A stretch of 38,881 nt of DNA. It comes from Methylococcaceae bacterium TMED69 (lineage in GTDB: Bacteria > Pseudomonadota > Gammaproteobacteria > Ga0077536). Each line of letters starts with the position of its first letter. Position 1 is the stretch's first letter. The stretch lies in the NCBI GenBank assembly GCA_002170535.1, contig NHDW01000003.1, positions 87,593-126,473 on the forward strand, written 5' to 3'. Shown piece by piece: positions 8,486 through 23,434 of the stretch. The notes under the pieces were generated by a model. That model worked only from the letters and a program-made list of their open reading frames with translations, was not told the origin of the DNA and searched no databases. The position numbers and the translations under genes were made by a program.

Positions 8486-9649
8486 CTACTTACCGAAAAC
8501 ACCCGACTCCTTCATCGCCAACACATCTTTTTCCCGATAACCCAATGATTTCAGAATCTCTGAATTATGCTCTCCTTTTTCCGGAAATGAAAAAACTAAT
8601 TTTCCAGGTTCGTTCTTAAATTTGATGGGAATTCCTAAATGCTCCCATCCACGATTATCTTCAACAATCATCTCTCTATGGCGGATTTGCTCATCGTCTG
8701 CAGCCTCGCGCAATGTCTTGACGGGAGCAAAGGCAGTGTCAATTTTTTTTAGTCGCCTAATCCAATACTCTTGATTTTCAGATAAAAAAGTCTCTTCAAG
8801 AAAAGACTTGACAGGTTGTTGGCTTGGCCCAGGCGGCGGTTTACAGTGTGGCAAAAGATCCAATCTTCCAAATTCCTTGAGTAAAGATTCCGCAAAATGT
8901 AATTCTGAGCCTCCTAAAACAATATGCCGATCATCTTTTGTTTTATAAATTTTATAAAATGCGTAACCACCTAACGCGCGCTCTGAGGTGGGGTCGGGCT
9001 CTTTTTTATCTGCAAAAACAGTGCCCATATTATTGACCGTTGACGCAAATATACTATCTGCCATCGCAACATCTATATAATCACCTTGTTTAGTTGCCTC
9101 CCTCCTATAAAGGGCCATCAGTATTCCACTGAAACTCATCATTGATGAAAGCATATCTGCAGCTGCAATCCCTGGTATGGCTGGATTGCCATCTGGACCA
9201 AGAGTAATACTCAAAGCACCTGCTATAGCCTCAGTAGCCAGATCATGTGCCGGCCTAGTGAGGTAAGGTCCCGACTGACCCCACGCTGACATAGAGCAAT
9301 ACACAATACCAGGATTAATTTTGGACAAGTCTTCGTAAGAAACGCCCAGCCTTTTTGCCACACCCGGCCTGAAAGCCTCAACAAAAACATCGACTTCTTT
9401 AACTAACCGTCCAATTACTTCTTGACCCTTATCGGTCTTTAAGTTTAATTGGATGCTTTTTTTATTTCGGTGGGTATTAGCAAAATAGACTGAGGTCCCA
9501 TTCCTCGTTTCCCCGATGTCCCTATTTGGCTCACCCGCGAGCGGTTCGAGCTTAATCACTTCCGCTCCATGATCAGCCATCATCTGTGTCGCAAATGGCC
9601 CAGGCAAAAATAAAGATAAATCTAATACCTTCAAACCCGCTAATTTCAT
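8486..9649 (-). CDS. CaiB/BaiF-family (family III) CoA-transferase
   Basis: A 387-residue family III CoA-transferase of normal length. The catalytic aspartate is D165 in IAAADMLSSM. The N-terminal KVLDLSLFLPGPFATQMMADHGAEVIK and the EAFRPGV segment (91-97) are typical. Relatives move CoA between carboxylic acids (formyl-CoA:oxalate, carnitine, succinyl-CoA donors). The substrate is unknown here. It is the first gene of a minus-strand run with the amidohydrolase, fhs and DUF1330. Upstream lies the divergent metY leader. No strong ribosome site is visible before the ATG. Confidence 0.92.
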   Translation of the reverse strand: MKLAGLKVLDLSLFLPGPFATQMMADHGAEVIKLEPLAGEPNRDIGETRNGTSVYFANTHRNKKSIQLNLKTDKGQEVIGRLVKEVDVFVEAFRPGVAKRLGVSYEDLSKINPGIVYCSMSAWGQSGPYLTRPAHDLATEAIAGALSITLGPDGNPAIPGIAAADMLSSMMSFSGILMALYRREATKQGDYIDVAMADSIFASTVNNMGTVFADKKEPDPTSERALGGYAFYKIYKTKDDRHIVLGGSELHFAESLLKEFGRLDLLPHCKPPPGPSQQPVKSFLEETFLSENQEYWIRRLKKIDTAFAPVKTLREAADDEQIRHREMIVEDNRGWEHLGIPIKFKNEPGKLVFSFPEKGEHNSEILKSLGYREKDVLAMKESGVFGK

Positions 9650-9695
9650 ATCACTACTTTAAGTCATTTTAAATTAAACACAATATTAACATACC

Positions 9696-9723
9696 TTGAC
9701 TTTTACGTAACATATATTAAGAT
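9696..9723 (+). promoter_or_regulatory. Sigma70-type promoter for metY
   Basis: TTGACT at 9696-9701 and TAAGAT at 9718-9723 are separated by 16 bases. The predicted transcription start, about base 9730, falls at the 5' strand of the SAM-II aptamer, as expected for an mRNA that begins with the riboswitch. The -10 matches consensus in only four positions. Confidence 0.5.
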
Positions 9724-9727
9724 AACA

Positions 9728-9780
9728 CTAGCGCTGATTTGAGACAGATTGCAGGCGCTATATAAGTCTAGCTAAAGCGT
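9728..9780 (+). ncRNA. SAM-II (SAM_alpha) riboswitch aptamer
   Basis: The leader carries the conserved SAM-II blocks in order: CGCTGATTT (9732-9740), TTGCAGGCGC (9749-9758), ATAA (9762-9765) and AGCTAAAG (9770-9777 region). Stem P1 is a perfect 6-bp helix, TAGCGC (9729-9734) with GCGCTA (9755-9760). A pseudoknot strand AGAC (9742-9745) complements GTCT (9766-9769), as the SAM-II fold requires. SAM-II RNAs bind S-adenosylmethionine and repress methionine genes, mainly in alphaproteobacteria and marine bacteria. The downstream gene is an O-acetylhomoserine sulfhydrylase, the expected target class. Confidence 0.9.
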
Positions 9781-9793
9781 TTCTACTAGCTTT

Positions 9794-9840
9794 TCCTGCA
9801 ATCTTTTCTAGAGCCAACTTTAGGACTTAATGGAACAGGA
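9794..9840 (+). promoter_or_regulatory. Predicted expression platform and ribosome site of metY
   Basis: CCTGCAATCT (9795-9804) is perfectly complementary over 10 bases to AGATTGCAGG (9746-9755) inside the aptamer. Its 5' part TCCTG (9794-9798) also complements the ribosome site CAGGA (9836-9840), which lies eight bases before the ATG. The two pairings exclude each other. The complementarity is seen directly; the switching mechanism is inferred. Confidence 0.5.
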
Positions 9841-9848
9841 TTATATAA

Positions 9849-11132
9849 ATGACACATAAAATAGAAACACTAGCCCTACACGCTGGATTTAGATCAGATG
9901 ATAGGACAAACGCCGTGGCGGTACCAATTTATCAAACAACCAGCTACGAGTTCAATAGCACCAAACACGCGGAAAATCTTTTCCAATTATCAGAACTGGG
10001 TAACATTTATACAAGAATAATGAACCCAACCAACGATATTCTCGAAAAGCGAGTCGCGGCAATCGACAATGGAATCGCTGCACTAGCAGTAGCATCAGGA
10101 CAGGCTGCAAGTTTATATTCAATTCAAAATATTTGTGTTGCAGGCGACAATTTTGTTTGTTCGAAACATTTATACGGGGGCACATGGAATCTCTTTAAAA
10201 ACACACTTAAAGACATGGGTATCGAAGCCAGATTTGTAAACCCTTCTGACCCGAACAATTTTAGAGAAGCGACAGATGAAAAAACCCGAGCATATTATGC
10301 CGAAACACTCCCAAACCCAAGCTTCGAGGTGTTTCCAATTGGCGAGGTGGCAGAAATAGGAAGAGAACTCGGTATTCCACTGATAGTAGATAATACCGCT
10401 GCACCCATCCTGTGCCGCCCATTTGAACATGGCGCAGCTATTACAATTTATTCTGCAACAAAATTCATAGGTGGACATGGAACCACAATAGGGGGCCTAT
10501 TAGTGGATGGCGGAAATTTTGATTGGGAGTCACATAGCGATCGATTTCCGAAACTAAATAAACCAGACCCAAATTATCATGGCGTTGTATGGACAGAAGC
10601 CGCCAAACCCCTAGGACCAATTGCTTATCTCCTCAAAGCCAGAGTAACATTATTGAGAGATTCAGGAGCAGCTATGTCGCCATTTAATGCATTCCAGTTC
10701 ATCCAGGGTCTAGAGACTCTACCTTTGAGAATGGAAAGACACTGTCAGAATGCGATGGCTGCGGCAAATTTCCTTTCAAAGCATCCTAAAGTCAGCAGAG
10801 TTATTCACCCCAGCGTCCAAAGAGGAAAAGCGAAAACCAATGCCGATAAATACTTAAGAAATGGTTATGGAAGTTTAATGGGAATCGAAATAGAAGGCGG
10901 CAAAAAGTCGGGGCATAGATTCATTGATAGTTTGAAACTGTTTTATCACGTTGCAAATATCGGTGATGCTAGAAGCCTTGCGATTCATCCAGCAACCACA
11001 ACACATAGTCAACTTGATGAGCACGAACTTATGGCAGCCGGTGTTACGCCTGGTTACGTGCGCCTATCAATTGGGATAGAAAACATAGATGATATCATTT
11101 CAGATTTAGAACAAGCACTAGCTAAGGTTTAG
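9849..11132 (+). CDS. metY: O-acetylhomoserine aminocarboxypropyltransferase (sulfhydrylase)
   Basis: A 427-residue PLP enzyme of the Cys/Met metabolism family, the length typical of O-acetylhomoserine sulfhydrylase rather than shorter cystathionine enzymes. The PLP-binding lysine is K205 in YSATKFIGGHG. The N-terminus with ETLALHAGF, then PIYQTTSY, and the substrate loop YTRIMNPTND are characteristic. It condenses O-acetylhomoserine with sulfide to form homocysteine, the direct route to methionine. The upstream SAM-II riboswitch and an AGGA site eight bases before the ATG support both function and start. The last four bases overlap the 3' end of the convergent ytoQ-like gene. A closely related O-succinylhomoserine specificity cannot be excluded. 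Confidence 0.93.
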   Translation: MTHKIETLALHAGFRSDDRTNAVAVPIYQTTSYEFNSTKHAENLFQLSELGNIYTRIMNPTNDILEKRVAAIDNGIAALAVASGQAASLYSIQNICVAGDNFVCSKHLYGGTWNLFKNTLKDMGIEARFVNPSDPNNFREATDEKTRAYYAETLPNPSFEVFPIGEVAEIGRELGIPLIVDNTAAPILCRPFEHGAAITIYSATKFIGGHGTTIGGLLVDGGNFDWESHSDRFPKLNKPDPNYHGVVWTEAAKPLGPIAYLLKARVTLLRDSGAAMSPFNAFQFIQGLETLPLRMERHCQNAMAAANFLSKHPKVSRVIHPSVQRGKAKTNADKYLRNGYGSLMGIEIEGGKKSGHRFIDSLKLFYHVANIGDARSLAIHPATTTHSQLDEHELMAAGVTPGYVRLSIGIENIDDIISDLEQALAKV

Positions 11133-12037: not shown

Positions 12038-13462
12038 TTATTTTATCATCTGGTACGCAGATAGTGCTTCGTTTCGAGTAGCAGACAGGTCAACTATTCG
12101 CCCGGGGTAGTTAACTCCAATTTCTACACCAGCTTCCTTTAAAATAGTAATGGGAGCTTCCCAGGGACAATGAATATATTTGATTGGGAGCTTCGCCAGT
12201 TCTGGTACAAATGTTTTAATGTATGCACCTTTCGGATCGAACTTTTTAGACTGTAAAATTGGATTAAAAATTCTGAAGAAAGGGGCAGCATCTGCACCAC
12301 ACCCCGCAACCCATTGCCACCCAGCTGAATTATTTGCTAGATCAGCGTCAAACAAACAATTCCAAAACCAAGATTGACCTAGTCTCCAATCAAGAAGAAG
12401 ATTCTTAACTAGAAAAGAACCTGTAATCATTCTGAGTCGGTTATGCATATAACCGGTTTGCCACAACTGTCTCATTCCAGCATCTACAATAGGGTAGCCT
12501 GTTGAACCGACCTGCCAATTTCTTAGCATAGCATGATTCCGGTTCCATGGAAAATTATCGAACTTTTTTTGCAGATTATTTTCTGGCATGTCAGGGTTAA
12601 AAAATAAAAGATTATAAGAAAATTCTCGCCATCCTAACTCTGTAAGAAAAGTGCTATGGTCCATACTCTTGCAGTCGATATCTGAATTTCTTATTGCATG
12701 CCAAATCCTATTCACAGATATCTCTCCAAAATGCAAATGAGGTGATAATCTCGAGACATTTTGTAATGATGGACAGTTTCTTCCTTCCTGATAACCCTCG
12801 ATTCCTTGTTTAAGAAAACTTTCAAATTTGATTATTGCTCCCTGTTCACCGGGTTCCCATAGATTGGTAAATTTTTTGTGCCATTTTTCTATTTTAAAAA
12901 AATTAGTTAGTTCTCCTGCTGAATTCGGTTTCTTACACAACAAGTATTCAGGTGGTGGTCCTGAAGGCAACTCCGGCTGTGTTGCATTTTCTAAACATCC
13001 TTTTTTGAAAAAAGGCGTAAATACTTTATATGGAGTTCCATCTTTTTTCTGTACTTTTTGAGGCTCGAACAACAAGGTACCGTTAAAACTTTTCACAATC
13101 ATTTTCTCTAAGAGAAGCTGCTTTTTTATAACTATATCTCTTGATATCTGCCATGGCTCATAACAACGATTCCAAAAAATTGCCTCGCAGTTTTCTGTTA
13201 CCCGAACCAGCTGCCTAAGGACCTCCAAAGGATCTCCGCTTTTTAAGTTTAAATTTCCAGACAAACTAGAATTTAATGAGGTGAGACTTTTGGAGAGCCA
13301 CCATTTTGCCGCATCGCCTATCATCCATTTTTGGTCACTTTTTGTATCAAAGATAAACAATGGATAGATGCGATAATTGCTGTCAGCCGCGTATTTGAAA
13401 GCTGGATTATCATGCAACCTTAAATCACGTCTAAACCAAACTATTGCAGTTTTACTGTTCAT
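12038..13462 (-). CDS. phrB: Deoxyribodipyrimidine photolyase (class I CPD type)
   Basis: A 474-residue FAD photolyase, close to the 472 residues of the E. coli enzyme. The N-terminal alpha/beta domain begins with IVWFRRDLRLHDNP. The FAD domain carries SRLSPHLHFGEIS, GYPIVDAGMRQL, and NNSAGWQW followed by FRIFNP. The asparagine and tryptophans next to the flavin are therefore intact, and light-driven repair of cyclobutane dimers is expected. The start ATG at 13462 gives the canonical N-terminus. It is second in a four-gene run (DUF2256, phrB, DUF3429, YtoQ) with intergenic gaps of 15-18 bases around it. Confidence 0.95.
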   Translation of the reverse strand: MNSKTAIVWFRRDLRLHDNPAFKYAADSNYRIYPLFIFDTKSDQKWMIGDAAKWWLSKSLTSLNSSLSGNLNLKSGDPLEVLRQLVRVTENCEAIFWNRCYEPWQISRDIVIKKQLLLEKMIVKSFNGTLLFEPQKVQKKDGTPYKVFTPFFKKGCLENATQPELPSGPPPEYLLCKKPNSAGELTNFFKIEKWHKKFTNLWEPGEQGAIIKFESFLKQGIEGYQEGRNCPSLQNVSRLSPHLHFGEISVNRIWHAIRNSDIDCKSMDHSTFLTELGWREFSYNLLFFNPDMPENNLQKKFDNFPWNRNHAMLRNWQVGSTGYPIVDAGMRQLWQTGYMHNRLRMITGSFLVKNLLLDWRLGQSWFWNCLFDADLANNSAGWQWVAGCGADAAPFFRIFNPILQSKKFDPKGAYIKTFVPELAKLPIKYIHCPWEAPITILKEAGVEIGVNYPGRIVDLSATRNEALSAYQMIK

Positions 13463-13477
13463 AATTTCCTTAATCTA

Positions 13478-13624
13478 CTAAATATATGAATTTTTTCGCG
13501 TAGTCCTTCGACATCTCTCTGAACAATATTTAACCTGGTCCCATACTTTTTTCCATTTTTTTCGCCACACAAAATCTCTTTTACAAACAGGACAATTTTT
13601 ACTTGGCAAGAACTCTTTTTTCAT
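13478..13624 (-). CDS. DUF2256 small zinc-ribbon-like protein
   Basis: A 48-residue frame between ATG 13624 and TAG 13478-13480. It contains the DUF2256 pattern: CPVC (C11, C14), FVWRKKW, then [14 protein letters not shown] with C34 and C38. The four cysteines probably bind one zinc ion. DUF2256 proteins are very short and commonly encoded next to photolyase/cryptochrome genes, as here, 15 bases upstream of the photolyase start. Function is unknown. No clear ribosome site is visible, but the sequence match leaves little doubt that it is real. Confidence 0.9.
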
Positions 13625-13934
13625 TTCAATTGCATTATTACGTTATATTTACCTATTAATGATAATAAATACGATTATAAACCCGACTTAATCCAATAAA
13701 AATAGAAATTAAGCCATAATTTTTAGTTTATATATACAACTGGGTTTTAACGCTACTCTTTTATTTACAAGCAGTTATAATCAAAAATATATAGTCTTCA
13801 AATATTGATTGTTAACTGAGGTATAATTAGGTTTCAAATGTTAAATTTAATTTTTATTATTGCAAAAAATTAAAAAATTAAACTCAAAGCTAAACTTATC
13901 CTACTTTGCACTTTTTCAATAGGTTATTAATAAA
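13625..13934. promoter_or_regulatory. Divergent intergenic region of the photolyase island
   Basis: This 310-base, very AT-rich gap separates the DUF2256/phrB run from the divergent FeS-BCP-type gene. I find no gene in it. It has a consensus -10 in each direction: TATAAT at 13822-13827 on the plus strand, after AACTGAGG, and TATAAT read on the minus strand at 13674-13679. Neither has a convincing -35 at the right distance, so light- or stress-responsive activators or another sigma factor are possible. That is inference only. Confidence 0.4.
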
Positions 13935-15434
13935 GTGAATAAAAATTTATTTGTTATTTTAGGCAATCAGTTGTTTAGGCCTAAGTTACTGAAGCAACTA
14001 AAGTGCAGCCACATCTTTCTCGCGGAGGACTATCAACTCTGCACTTATCAAAAACATCATAAATTGAAATTATATTTGTATTTGTGCGCCATGCGAGAAT
14101 ATCGAGATGAGCTAAAAGACTCTGGATTAACTGTTTCTTACTTTAAATTAGAGGATCGAAAAAGCAATCAAAGCTACGTTGATTTACTTTGTCAATTCAT
14201 GTCCCGCCACAAATATGAAAAGGCGCATTTATTTGAAATTGAAAACAAGTTTTTTGAAAAAACTATTATAAAGACCGCGCGGGAAAATGATCTGGATCTG
14301 ATTTTTCATCAATCGCCTATGTTTATGTTTTCTCGTAGAGAATTTAAGTCTTTATATTCAGACAAAAATAATTTTAGACTTTCAAATTTTTACAAACATG
14401 TTAGAAAAAAATTTCAAATTCTAGTCGATGATAAAAATGAGCCTATTGGAGGCAAGTGGTCCTTTGATGAAGAAAATAGAAAAAAGATACCAAATCATAT
14501 AGTTGTACCCCAACTAAGGAAAGAAAAGAGATCAACGCATCACCAAGACATCATTGAACTGATAGAAAAAAATTTTGCAAGTCACAATGGTAGTTTGGAC
14601 AACATTTGGTTTCCGGTAAGACGGAAAGACGCCGAAAAGCAACTTAAGTTATTCCTTAAGGAAAGATTAGCGCAATTTGGAATGTACGAAGATGCGATGA
14701 GAGCAGACGAAAATTTTTTATATCATAGTTGTCTGAGCCCTTTACTAAACATCGGACTCATTACCCCTAATGAAATTGTTAATTCTGCTAACAAAGTATT
14801 CGGTGAAGGGCTTGCCCCAATCAATTCTATTGAGGGTTTTATTCGCCAAATAATCGGCTGGCGTGAATTTATTAGAGGAATCTATCAATTAAAAGGAAAT
14901 CAACAAAAGCAAAGTAATTTTTGGGGCCATAAGCGTACTTTGAAACAATCTTGGTACGAGGGAACAACCGGTATAACACCCCTAGACGATAATATTAAGA
15001 TAACCATAAGGGATGGATATAATCATCACATTCCGAGATTGATGGTGATAAGTAATCTAATGACTTTATGTCAAATTAATCCTCAAAATATTTTTGCTTG
15101 GTTTATGGAAATGTATATTGATTCATCGGATTGGGTAATGGTGCCAAATGTGTTTGGTATGGCCACATATTCGGACGGCGGGTTAATGTCGACAAAACCT
15201 TATACATGTTCTTCGAATTATATCCTAAAAATGAGTAATTATAAAAGAGGAGATTGGTGTGATATTGTCGATGGTTTGTACTGGCGATTCATAGAAAATC
15301 ACAAAGATTTCTACAGCTCAAACCCCCGCTTATCATTTCAATTAAGACTACTTGACAAAATGGCCACCGAAAGAAAAGAAAGAATATATAATCTCGCTGA
15401 TAATTTTTTAAAAAATCATACGATCGAAAATTAA
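13935..15434 (+). CDS. FeS-BCP/PhrB-type cryptochrome-photolyase homologue lacking most Fe-S cysteines
   Basis: A 499-residue member of the deoxyribodipyrimidine photolyase-related group ((6-4) photolyases and CryB-like proteins). It has the N-terminal VILGNQL strand, GFIRQIIGWREFIRG (301-315), GYNHHIPRLMV (361-371), SDWVMVPNVFGMATYSDGG (398-416) and TKPYTCSSNYI (420-430). From memory, A. tumefaciens PhrB binds a 4Fe-4S cluster through four cysteines. Here the first position is N353 in LDDNI and the second is K437 in MSNYK. The third is lost in a deletion of roughly 11 residues; only C442 may remain. It should bind FAD but probably not the cluster. The start is GTG; no better start is seen. 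It is convergent with the third photolyase-like gene. Confidence 0.87.
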   Translation: MNKNLFVILGNQLFRPKLLKQLKCSHIFLAEDYQLCTYQKHHKLKLYLYLCAMREYRDELKDSGLTVSYFKLEDRKSNQSYVDLLCQFMSRHKYEKAHLFEIENKFFEKTIIKTARENDLDLIFHQSPMFMFSRREFKSLYSDKNNFRLSNFYKHVRKKFQILVDDKNEPIGGKWSFDEENRKKIPNHIVVPQLRKEKRSTHHQDIIELIEKNFASHNGSLDNIWFPVRRKDAEKQLKLFLKERLAQFGMYEDAMRADENFLYHSCLSPLLNIGLITPNEIVNSANKVFGEGLAPINSIEGFIRQIIGWREFIRGIYQLKGNQQKQSNFWGHKRTLKQSWYEGTTGITPLDDNIKITIRDGYNHHIPRLMVISNLMTLCQINPQNIFAWFMEMYIDSSDWVMVPNVFGMATYSDGGLMSTKPYTCSSNYILKMSNYKRGDWCDIVDGLYWRFIENHKDFYSSNPRLSFQLRLLDKMATERKERIYNLADNFLKNHTIEN

Positions 15435-15458
15435 TGTACTCAGAAATTTATGAGAACA

Positions 15459-16955
15459 TCAAAAATCAAAGGATTGTTGAATCTCAACCAATTTTGAAGT
15501 TTTTTTATTTTTAAAATTTTTTTTACGACTACCGTGTTTTAAGAAAATTTTTTTTGATTCTTTTTGAAATGTCGAAACTTTTTTAAGTGAATGTATTTTT
15601 TCAGCTGCTTTGAGTCTAGATTCTTTTTCTTCTACTATTAATGATGGATAACCTGTCTTCTTCAGTATTGGTGCTGGTTTAAACAGATTTTCTGGTTCGA
15701 CTTCTTTTAATTCAGGAACCCATCTCTTAATAAAAATAGCGTCAGGATCATGGTCAATTGATTGTTTAAAGGGGTTATATATTCTTATCGTGTTAATTCC
15801 GGTTGTTCCAGATTGCATTTGGCACTGTGGGTAATGAATGCCAGGCTCAAAGTCAACAAATAAACTTGCAAGGTAAGATGCAGATTGTTGCCAAGGCAAC
15901 CAGAGATGATAACTTGAAAAACTCATCAACATCGCCCTCATTCTAAAATTAATCCATCCAGTACTTATCAAACACCTCATGCATGCATCTAAGAAAGGAT
16001 AGCCTGTCATCCCGTTTTGCCATGCTACAAACTTCCTCTCACAAAATTCCCTATCTAACACATTCGTCAAAGAATGAAGATTATTAAACTCGATGGTTGG
16101 TTGGTCTTCTAGTTTTTGAATAAAATGACAGTGCCATTTCAATCTACTCATAAACGATCTTATTGATGCTCTTCTTTTTTTTAAAAGTGCAAGATCAGAG
16201 GTATCCATAACATTATTCAACGCCTTCACAGCATGTACAATTTCTTTTATAGAAAATATTCCAAAAGCAAGATACGGTGATAACCGAGAGGAGCTCACAA
16301 AAGCTTTATTTGGGGGCGAAATTCCACCTTTATAATTTGTATGTCTTGATGTAATAAAACTGTTCAGGACGCTTTCACCAGCTCTTCGTCCGCCTGGCAA
16401 TTTTCTAAACAAATCAATTGGATCAACTCGCCAGGTCGATTTAGAACCTGGAATGCGATCAGATCTAATTTCTACTCCATCCAACTTAACGGGTTCTTTC
16501 TCAGGCGGACGATCCATCCTTTCTTTCCATTTTTTAGACCAATCGTTGCGGTCTTTTAAACCTCTGACAACACCATTACGTGGCAATTCGCGCCAGTAGA
16601 TATTTTCAGATCTAAACCAATTTCTTAATGCGACATCTCGTTCGAAGGTCGCATAGCTCCAAGTTTCCTCGTAAGAAAACACTGTTTTTATATTAAACAT
16701 TTTAGCAATTGAGCTAAATACCTCTATGCAATCCCCTTTTCTGAATACAAGAGGTTGTCCTAATTTTGACAAATCGGCGTTCAGATCCTGCAGGGATTCA
16801 AAAAGAAACTTACGGTGCACGTTGCCCAGATTTGAATTAACCCAGATTGTCGGCTCGTAAATATATAGAGGAATAAATGGACCTTCTCGTCCAGCCTCCG
16901 TGAGCGCCAAATTATCGCAAATTCGCAAATCTCTTTTGAACCAAACTATATTCAT
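15459..16955 (-). CDS. Photolyase/cryptochrome-family protein, non-canonical clade
   Basis: A 498-residue flavoprotein with the photolyase N-terminal domain (IVWFKRDLRICDN, residues 3-15) and the FAD domain (SRLSPYLAFGIFS 223-235, WQNGMTGYPFLDACMR 312-327). In place of the CPD photolyase N-N-G-G-W-Q-W stretch it reads HYPQCQM (374-380), so the flavin-facing asparagine and the proximal tryptophan are changed. SGTTGINTIRIYNP (382-395) and DHDPDAIF follow. A lysine-rich tail of about 50 residues could bind nucleic acid. It may belong to the group sometimes called photolyase-like or NewPHL. Repair or light sensing are both possible. It starts 79 bases downstream of the tRNA-Ser 3' end. Confidence 0.85.
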   Translation of the reverse strand: MNIVWFKRDLRICDNLALTEAGREGPFIPLYIYEPTIWVNSNLGNVHRKFLFESLQDLNADLSKLGQPLVFRKGDCIEVFSSIAKMFNIKTVFSYEETWSYATFERDVALRNWFRSENIYWRELPRNGVVRGLKDRNDWSKKWKERMDRPPEKEPVKLDGVEIRSDRIPGSKSTWRVDPIDLFRKLPGGRRAGESVLNSFITSRHTNYKGGISPPNKAFVSSSRLSPYLAFGIFSIKEIVHAVKALNNVMDTSDLALLKKRRASIRSFMSRLKWHCHFIQKLEDQPTIEFNNLHSLTNVLDREFCERKFVAWQNGMTGYPFLDACMRCLISTGWINFRMRAMLMSFSSYHLWLPWQQSASYLASLFVDFEPGIHYPQCQMQSGTTGINTIRIYNPFKQSIDHDPDAIFIKRWVPELKEVEPENLFKPAPILKKTGYPSLIVEEKESRLKAAEKIHSLKKVSTFQKESKKIFLKHGSRKKNFKNKKTSKLVEIQQSFDF

Positions 16956-21830: not shown

Positions 21831-22052
21831 CTAGGGAACAGGATCATGGCCCTTTCCTCCAAGCGGATTACATCTGATAACTCTCGTCACTGATAACCAA
21901 AGACCTTTTCTAATTCCATGCCTAGATACAGCTTCCTGAGCATAAGATGAACAGGAGGGAGTAAAGCGACATGATGGAGCCAAGAAAGGTGATATGTATT
22001 TGATGTAAATACCGATAAACCGAACAATCAAGAAACGAGCTGGATATTTCAT
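21831..22052 (-). CDS. yidD: Membrane protein insertion efficiency factor YidD
   Basis: A 73-residue YidD protein with the full signature: a hydrophobic N-terminal helix with [23 protein letters not shown], then [34 protein letters not shown]. It lies at the inner membrane near YidC. Its ATG overlaps the cysS stop by four bases, so the two are translationally coupled. In most bacteria yidD sits between rnpA and yidC; here neither is present. The gene is complete. Confidence 0.95.
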
Positions 22053-23434
22053 TTTTCAATAAGCTCCCAGTCAGTTCCCTGTGCGCCATCCTTAAGCAGA
22101 ATATTTTTTTGAACCAATTGGTTTCTTATCTTATCAGCTGTCTTAAAATCTTTATTTTTTCTCGCTTCATTTCTTCTTTCTATAAATTTATTAATTTCAT
22201 TTTCATCTAACCGAGACGAGACAGAGGATTTAAACCAAGCACTCGGATCTTCTTTTAGTAAACCCAATAGATCAGCCCCATCTCTAAGTTCTTGTAAAAG
22301 TTCTAATCGTACTTCTAATTTTTTTGTACTCTTAATTTCTTTAGATATTTTAAACATTGCAGAAAGAGCTTCAGGTGTGTTTAGGTCAGAAGATAAAGCA
22401 TCTTTTATCCTATTACGATTTGGCTTAGTCAGGCTCATTGCTCCATCAGCTATTAATTCCATCAAAATGCGATAAATTTTGTCAAGACTTTGTCTTGCCC
22501 TCGAGGGACTTTCAGAAGTCCAATCGAGGGGTTGTCGATAATGCGTACTTATAAGCGCAAATCGAACCACCTCACCAGGTTCCTTTTGCAGTAAATCCTT
22601 AACTCTAATAATATTGCCCAAGGATTTCGACATCTTTTGGCCATCTATTGTCACGTGCCCGTTGTGAACCCAATACTTTGCATACTTCTCGTTATGAAAT
22701 GCGCATTCACTCTGCGCGATTTCGTTTTCATGATGAGGAAAAATTAAGTCCATTCCACCACCATGAATATCAATAGTTGATGCAAATATCTTCCTCGACA
22801 TGGCTGAACATTCAATATGCCAGCCGGGTCGACCGTAACCCCATTCACTGTCCCACCCAGGGATTCCATTTTTTGATGGCTTCCACAACACAAAGTCGGC
22901 TGGATTCCTTTTATACGGGGCCACTTCAACGCGTGCCCCAGCCAACATTTCGTCTTGATTTCGTTTTGATAGCTTGCCATAATCCTTAAATTTTTTAACT
23001 TCAAACAAGACATGCCCGTCGGCAACATAAGCAAAATTTTTTTCAACCAAATCACTTATCATTTTAATAATCTCATTAATATTTTCCGTAACCCGAGGTT
23101 CGTTCGAGGGCTCCAAAACACCTAGCCTTCTCATATCTTCTTTATAAGCTGCGATGAACTTTTTAGTAATCTCTTGATAAGAAACCCCTGTGTCCGATGC
23201 TGCTGCAAATATTTTGTCATCTATATCAGTGAAATTACGAGCATACACGACGTTCGGATAAGCAGATTTGAGAAGGCGAAACAGAATATCAAATACAATA
23301 GCAGGTCGAGCATTACCTACGTGAGGAAAATCATAGACCGTTGGCCCGCAAACATACATTGTCGCTGTATTTTCCGTTTGGGGCTGGAAAGTTTTGATAG
23401 ATTTAGAAAGAGTGTCATATAAGGAGATAATCAT
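22049..23434 (-). CDS. cysS: Cysteinyl-tRNA synthetase
   Basis: A 461-residue class I synthetase matching the E. coli length. The zinc ligands are all present at near-identical positions: C29, C209, H234 and E238. The HIGH-type motif is HVGN (38-41) and the KMSKS motif is at 267-271. It charges tRNA-Cys. The gene is first in a pair with yidD and is divergent from hisI, with 106 bases between starts. Confidence 0.98.

Follow-up and report, generated by a model that had tools for sequence, protein, structure and literature searches.

The leader of metY (9728-9848) in the window, by which we mean the whole stretch of 38,881 nucleotides from Methylococcaceae bacterium TMED69 that was analysed, raises the question whether a SAM-II riboswitch controls this gene and how its signal could reach the ribosome site. 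An initial annotation had proposed an aptamer with the conserved SAM-II blocks, a 6-bp P1 and a pseudoknot, followed by a strand that could pair either with the aptamer or with the Shine-Dalgarno (SD) site. All the features it named are present in the sequence exactly where it had placed them (Table 1).

Table 1. Elements of the metY leader and its surroundings, in window coordinates
Feature	Position	Strand	Basis or remark
Possible sigma-70-type promoter TTGACT-16-TAAGAT	9696-9723	+	consensus scan, 9/12 matches
SAM-II aptamer	9729-9783	+	upstream of metY
SAM-II aptamer core, model match	9729-9780	+	R2 62.4 bits, E 1.2e-14; SAM_alpha 24.5 bits
P1 5' strand AGCGCU	9730-9735	+	partner 9754-9759; P1 97% paired in 25 relatives
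P2 pseudoknot 5' strand GAGACAGAUU	9741-9750	+	sequence; inner column pairs 80-84% paired in relatives
Aptamer segment AGAUUGCAGG, target of the anti-aptamer strand	9746-9755	+	10 Watson-Crick pairs with 9795-9804
P1 3' strand GGCGCU	9754-9759	+	pairs with 9730-9735
GCUAAA of the SAM pocket strand	9771-9776	+	invariant in 25/25 aligned aptamers
P2 pseudoknot 3' strand AAGCGUUUC	9775-9783	+	sequence; column pairs in relatives
Putative anti-SD strand UCCUG	9794-9798	+	5 bp with 9836-9840; overlaps the anti-aptamer strand
Likely anti-aptamer strand CCUGCAAUCU	9795-9804	+	P 0.009 for run length, 0.002 for energy
Hairpin of 8 bp, G-U pairs included, separating the anti-SD from the SD	9806-9825	+	predicted in free and aptamer-folded states
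SD site CAGGA	9836-9840	+	sequence; 8 nt before ATG
metY, O-acetylhomoserine sulfhydrylase	9849-11132	+	TIGR01326, 606 bits (cut-off 495)

The aptamer part of the proposal is borne out. P1 consists of 6 bp, one of them U-G, and could be extended by U9729-A9760. P2 pairs G9741-C9745 with G9779-C9783, G9747 with C9778, and U9749-U9750 with A9775-A9776, giving eight standard pairs, a bulged A9746, and one A-G mismatch (A9748/G9777) in a column that is unpaired in 11 of the 25 relatives too. The nucleotides conserved in SAM-II (GAUUU, UUGC, GCGC, UAnAA, and GCUAAA) are all kept, as are all 25 columns that are invariant in an alignment of 25 aptamers. Pair counting over these aptamers, with the frequencies listed for P1 and P2 in Table 1, finds 16 cells changed on both sides as compared with 5.2 in shuffles. 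Two P1 pairs carry such changes, and in P2 they occur only in the two outer pairs.

How clearly the class is recognised depends on the covariance model. Scoring with Rfam SAM_alpha (RF00521) had been suggested as a check; it gives a match of 24.5 bits over 9721-9796 (E 0.001, 251 bases searched), which falls short of the gathering score (36 bits). A whole-window Rfam scan at the curated cut-off lists two tRNAs only and not SAM-II, a search of the whole source genome with RF00521 yielded nothing at E 0.001, and with the SAM-II long loop model (RF01726) the match reaches 16.4 of the 44 bits that its gathering score requires. The held-out model R2, for which 23 relatives were used and both the window and its congener G001 were excluded, recognises the window with the score given in Table 1 and the congener with 55.6 bits. 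Model R1 had taken in the window, and its 64.8 bits for this locus are not independent. Relatives were collected by DNA similarity in genomes of the same class and from alphaproteobacterial and SAR86 loci fetched by MetY. Because the Rfam gathering score is likewise missed by the congener and by most related loci, the low value reflects a limit of that model and not a structural failure. The empty genome search has the same cause, since our own model finds the element in the very genome in which RF00521 gave nothing. By sequence comparison, a SAM-II riboswitch upstream of metY is nearly certain; the element is an ordinary member of a known riboswitch class, and its aptamer presumably binds SAM, with the discrimination against SAH that marks the class.

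The ATG of metY lies 65 nt after the end of P2, which places the aptamer before a methionine gene. The possible promoter ends seven bases before P1, and a transcript from it would start a few nucleotides before P1; SAM-II elements usually have a promoter-like site immediately ahead of P1. The consensus scan found two such sites where 1.1 are expected by chance, so the site is weak evidence by itself. With SAM-II as first described (metA, SAM_alpha; RF00521, Corbino et al. 2005, PMC1273637) the window thus shares P1 and the P2 pseudoknot, the GAUUU/UUGC/GCUAAA blocks, the downstream met gene and the promoter-like site, whereas it differs in its score below the gathering threshold and in having no terminator. 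A nine-codon open reading frame (MEQDYINDT, 9830-9859), with AGGA four nucleotides before its ATG, overlaps the start of metY and probably arose by chance.

The metZ and metA SAM-II riboswitches of Sinorhizobium meliloti (PMC9373788) exert OFF control by platform rearrangement, metA by SD sequestration, and the window may share this OFF logic. In S. meliloti metA the SD lies within P2 and is occluded directly, whereas the window SD stands 52 nt beyond the end of P2, outside its 3' strand, and would need a separate masking strand. The Sargasso Sea metagenome metX riboswitch (PDB 2QWY, PMC10907184) has the same aptamer fold as the window, but its SD is embedded in P2 and it has no separate anti-SD strand. 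SAM-V and the tandem SAM-II/SAM-V elements of marine Alphaproteobacteria (PMC2704228, PMC9481103) have a related pocket sequence; the window carries a single SAM-II with a full P2 and lacks SAM-V. Tandem arrangements of SAM-II followed by a SAM-V-like aptamer, known from the literature, were seen before metY at the alphaproteobacterial loci L003, L008, L016, L032, L052, L055, L057, L065, and L076. The mechanism class considered for the window, translational attenuation in the absence of a terminator, has already been described for riboswitches (PMC2258182).

Because the leader has no terminator, the best reading is translational OFF control of metY by a toggling strand; we hold it with moderate confidence, and an OFF switch acting on translation of whatever design is probable. 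Without SAM, 9795-9804 would pair with 9746-9755, undoing P2 and the SAM pocket and keeping UCCUG off the ribosome site. With SAM, P1 and P2 would close over the ligand and release UCCUG, which could then pair with the SD around the hairpin 9806-9825 and hide it. Plentiful SAM would in this way lower metY expression.

The first step of this scheme depends on the perfect complementarity, over 10 Watson-Crick pairs, of AGATTGCAGG (9746-9755) to CCTGCAATCT (9795-9804), which had been noted initially and is exact. When the leader part downstream of the aptamer was permuted, 0.9% of the shuffled leaders had a Watson-Crick run of at least 10, and 0.2% matched or surpassed the helix energy of the window. 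The aptamer segment shares bases with P2 and UUGC and includes the first two of the P1 3' strand; its pairing with 9795-9804 and the formation of P2 and the UUGC core exclude each other. In folding calculations, whose energies leave out the P2 pseudoknot and SAM, the helix has a predicted probability of 0.33-0.85 in the free state, depending on leader length; free folding of the leader shows no unusual stability (z -0.57).

Comparable strands recur in other leaders. The comparison covered 133 gammaproteobacterial leaders, four of which are SAR86 or same-class loci retrieved through their MetY. Of the 133, 3 have a run of 10 or more against the segment around UUGC (0.07 expected), 6 have one of 9 or more (0.45 expected), and ten have one of 8 or more (2.4 expected). 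The three longest belong to the window, to L231 before a metF-like gene (AGCUUGCGGG/CCCGCAAGCU), and to L287 before metZ (CAGCUUGCGGG/CCCGCAAGCUG), and all three leaders are terminator-less. Compared with AGAUUGCAGG and CCUGCAAUCU in the window, the pairing AGCUUGCGGG with CCCGCAAGCU of L231 and L287 is changed on both sides at two positions, in one register. Because the three leaders are not close relatives, their sequences speak for the recurrence of a design and not for covariation of one helix. Strand 9795-9804 likely serves as an anti-aptamer strand. The impression that SAM-II platforms are rarely this explicit did not hold, as the leaders of several relatives show equally clear switches.

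The second step, the presumed masking of the SD, is the weakest. The complementarity of TCCTG (9794-9798) to CAGGA (9836-9840) is exact over 5 bp, as had been reported, and it is near chance: any such mask occurs in 15% of shuffled leaders (P 0.15), and the anti-aptamer strand of the window would find a partner in 12% of random sites that contain AGGA. If the aptamer is constrained to its folded state, the minimum-energy structure predicted for the remaining sequence places the SD helix atop a second hairpin, and the predicted probability of UCCUG:CAGGA is 0.74-0.90 for leaders ending at 9850-9900, falling to 0.0 once the leader is extended to 9950. The predicted cost of opening the SD differs between the free and the aptamer-folded state by only 0.9-1.6 kcal/mol for leaders up to 9900, a difference that vanishes with 100 nt of coding sequence (9724-9950). 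Folding with the aptamer constrained favours the proposed mask in leaders up to 9900, and in those only. That 9794-9798 acts as an SD mask is about an even call.

For the 33 terminator-less leaders, a joint score was calculated from the best anti-aptamer helix and an anti-SD helix overlapping it or within 6 nt. The score reached p <=0.05 in 10 of them, with a Fisher p of about 1e-6 to 1e-5 that has to be read with several of the leaders coming from one family and not being fully independent; the window alone gave P 0.0007. Controls gave Fisher p values of 0.5 for other aptamer segments, 0.005 for reversed targets, and 0.0006 for reversed SD. Since the signal with the SD reversed still amounts to 6e-4, most of what is seen across the class comes from the anti-aptamer helix; this part is firm, and the SD part adds only modestly to it. 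In L158, before metK, CGCCUGCAAG also carries CCUG for its SD CAGG, and in L231 the anti-aptamer strand is immediately followed by UUCCCG, the partner of CGGGAG; other clear examples are L175, L082, and the second aptamer of L087. In L256 and L273, CGCUUUAGC runs into CCCCC against GGGGG, with own p values of 0.13 and 0.16.

These results bear on an alternative in which control is translational and OFF, the SD being hidden or freed by other structure or by general folding while UCCUG:CAGGA is incidental. The near-chance frequency of the 5-bp complement (P 0.12-0.15) is in its favour, and so are the free ensemble, in which the SD is predicted to pair partly with P1 5' bases, and the leaders L175, L231, and L087, in which the anti-SD lies beside and not inside the anti-aptamer strand. 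However, UCCUG is the dominant predicted partner of the SD in leaders up to 9900 when the aptamer is folded, and L158 shares the overlap of anti-aptamer and anti-SD strands, though with only 4 bp to the SD. We consider this alternative unlikely, if the most serious competitor of the toggling strand.

A transcriptional platform is the commoner one in the class. By our own hairpin and U-tract rule, on which these counts depend, an intrinsic terminator soon follows the aptamer in 98 of the 133 leaders and is absent from 35. In the terminator leaders a downstream GCUUUAGC pairs with the aptamer's GCUAAAGC (mean z -2.25 versus shuffles), and the controls with the P1 5' strand and the GAUUU loop gave nothing above shuffles. 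The congener G001 (locus L111), the only one found with a homologous leader and the nearest relative found, encodes a MetY 73% identical to that of the window and has kept the aptamer. In its leader (L111:1290-1400) the platform is a CCUGUU...GAGCAGG hairpin with a U tract behind it, its start codon stands 150 nt after the aptamer, and its longest aptamer-to-leader run is only 6. Both complementarities of the window, which close relatives had been expected to preserve, are absent there, and conservation cannot be claimed; platform turnover between relatives, here within one genus, is a plausible explanation. In either congener UCCUG follows the aptamer at a short distance, with the terminator arm as its partner in L111 and the SD in the window; that the two are homologous is a guess.

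It could accordingly be asked whether a weak or Rho-dependent terminator in the leader or early metY controls transcription in the window as well. The prevalence of intrinsic terminators in the class, the U-tract terminator of L111, and the shared position of UCCUG would agree with this, but no terminator-like site was found in 9640-9900, nor any by a hairpin and U-tract scan of the leader, and a terminator made of the 10-bp helix and the UUUUCU behind it would act in the absence of SAM, which is the wrong logic for a biosynthetic gene. Transcriptional control therefore seems improbable, and translational OFF control by the toggling strand remains the preferred reading.

In a tree, MetY of the window stands apart from that of its classmates, inside the alphaproteobacterial part, together with sequences of SAR86, SAR116, and Myxococcota and some from Alphaproteobacteria. 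Gene and switch may have travelled together. Among plasmid records only metY stretches of 63-68% identity were found, with no matching leader. The assembly contains no 16S sequence by which the host could be placed. The window has ispB, rplU, rpmA, and obgE in the order known from E. coli, where one further gene is inserted. Its ObgE shares 54-59% identity with classmates, 52.5% with E. coli, and 46-49% with Alphaproteobacteria. From this gene order and the ObgE identities, the host most likely belongs to the Gammaproteobacteria; CysS, with 50-54% identity to Alphaproteobacteria versus 43-45% to classmates, was left out of the placement for that reason. The alphaproteobacterial affinity of CysS (22049-23434) and MetY (9849-11132), as against ObgE, suggests that both are acquired genes. 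Elsewhere in the window, three photolyase- or cryptochrome-like proteins, recognised by reading the sequence, are clustered in 12038-16955 (12038-13462 on the minus, 13935-15434 on the plus, and 15459-16955 on the minus strand).

That the aptamer was kept while its platform was lost on gene transfer or genome shrinkage, the complementarities being leftover or chance, would suit the A-G mismatch 9748/9777, the sub-threshold Rfam score, and a MetY of horizontally shared type, but it is very improbable given that all 25 invariant positions are intact, that the same P2 column is unpaired in 11 of 25 relatives, and that the 10-bp run is significant.

The gammaproteobacterial host, initially taken as unusual, is not: of 369 genomes sampled from the whole class, 184 have SAM-II by model R1, and at a laxer threshold so do 19 of 36 genomes of the host family. 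The downstream genes, judged by eye from the starts of their reading frames and not by family search, are mostly of the metZ type, as seen at loci L144-L185 and L223-L302; others are metK, metF, metN, metE-like, BHMT, and metY. In the literature SAM-II is described as sporadic in Gammaproteobacteria (PMC2258182) or mentioned for them in passing (PMC2704228), and a survey with Rfam models reported SAM_alpha in Rhizobiales and Rhodobacterales only (PMC4239095). The Rfam gathering score is passed by 5 of the 20 top-scoring class loci and by 2 of 20 further loci, mostly of the host family. Since most of the loci tested fall below it, the SAM_alpha model under-reports SAM-II in this class.

Several loci stand out by their own arrangement. 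At L158, L171, L242, L248, L259, L264, L276, and L278, the aptamer lies directly before a metK-like (SAM synthetase) gene, as read from the start of the reading frame. One 5.1 Mb genome (G280) has ten SAM-II matches, which is unusually many. Tandem SAM-II aptamers precede an AAA-type ATPase gene at L168:1387-1553 (minus strand) and a gene for an unknown protein at L173:1501-1666, neither of which looks like a methionine gene.

The single switch of the window is ordinary, and its usefulness lies in the class-wide context. We tentatively suggest that Gammaproteobacteria hold a large, mostly unannotated SAM-II population whose platforms repeatedly switch between a terminator type (GCUUUAGC against GCUAAAGC) and a translational toggle, with an anti-aptamer strand against UUGCRGG and an adjacent or overlapping anti-SD. 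In the window, what was once a terminator arm UCCUG...CAGG would now serve as an SD mask. With anti-aptamer strands recurring in this way, compensatory mutation can directly test how SAM-II leaders without terminators switch between two states, and an improved SAM_alpha model would close gaps in our picture of methionine regulation for many lineages represented by MAGs only.
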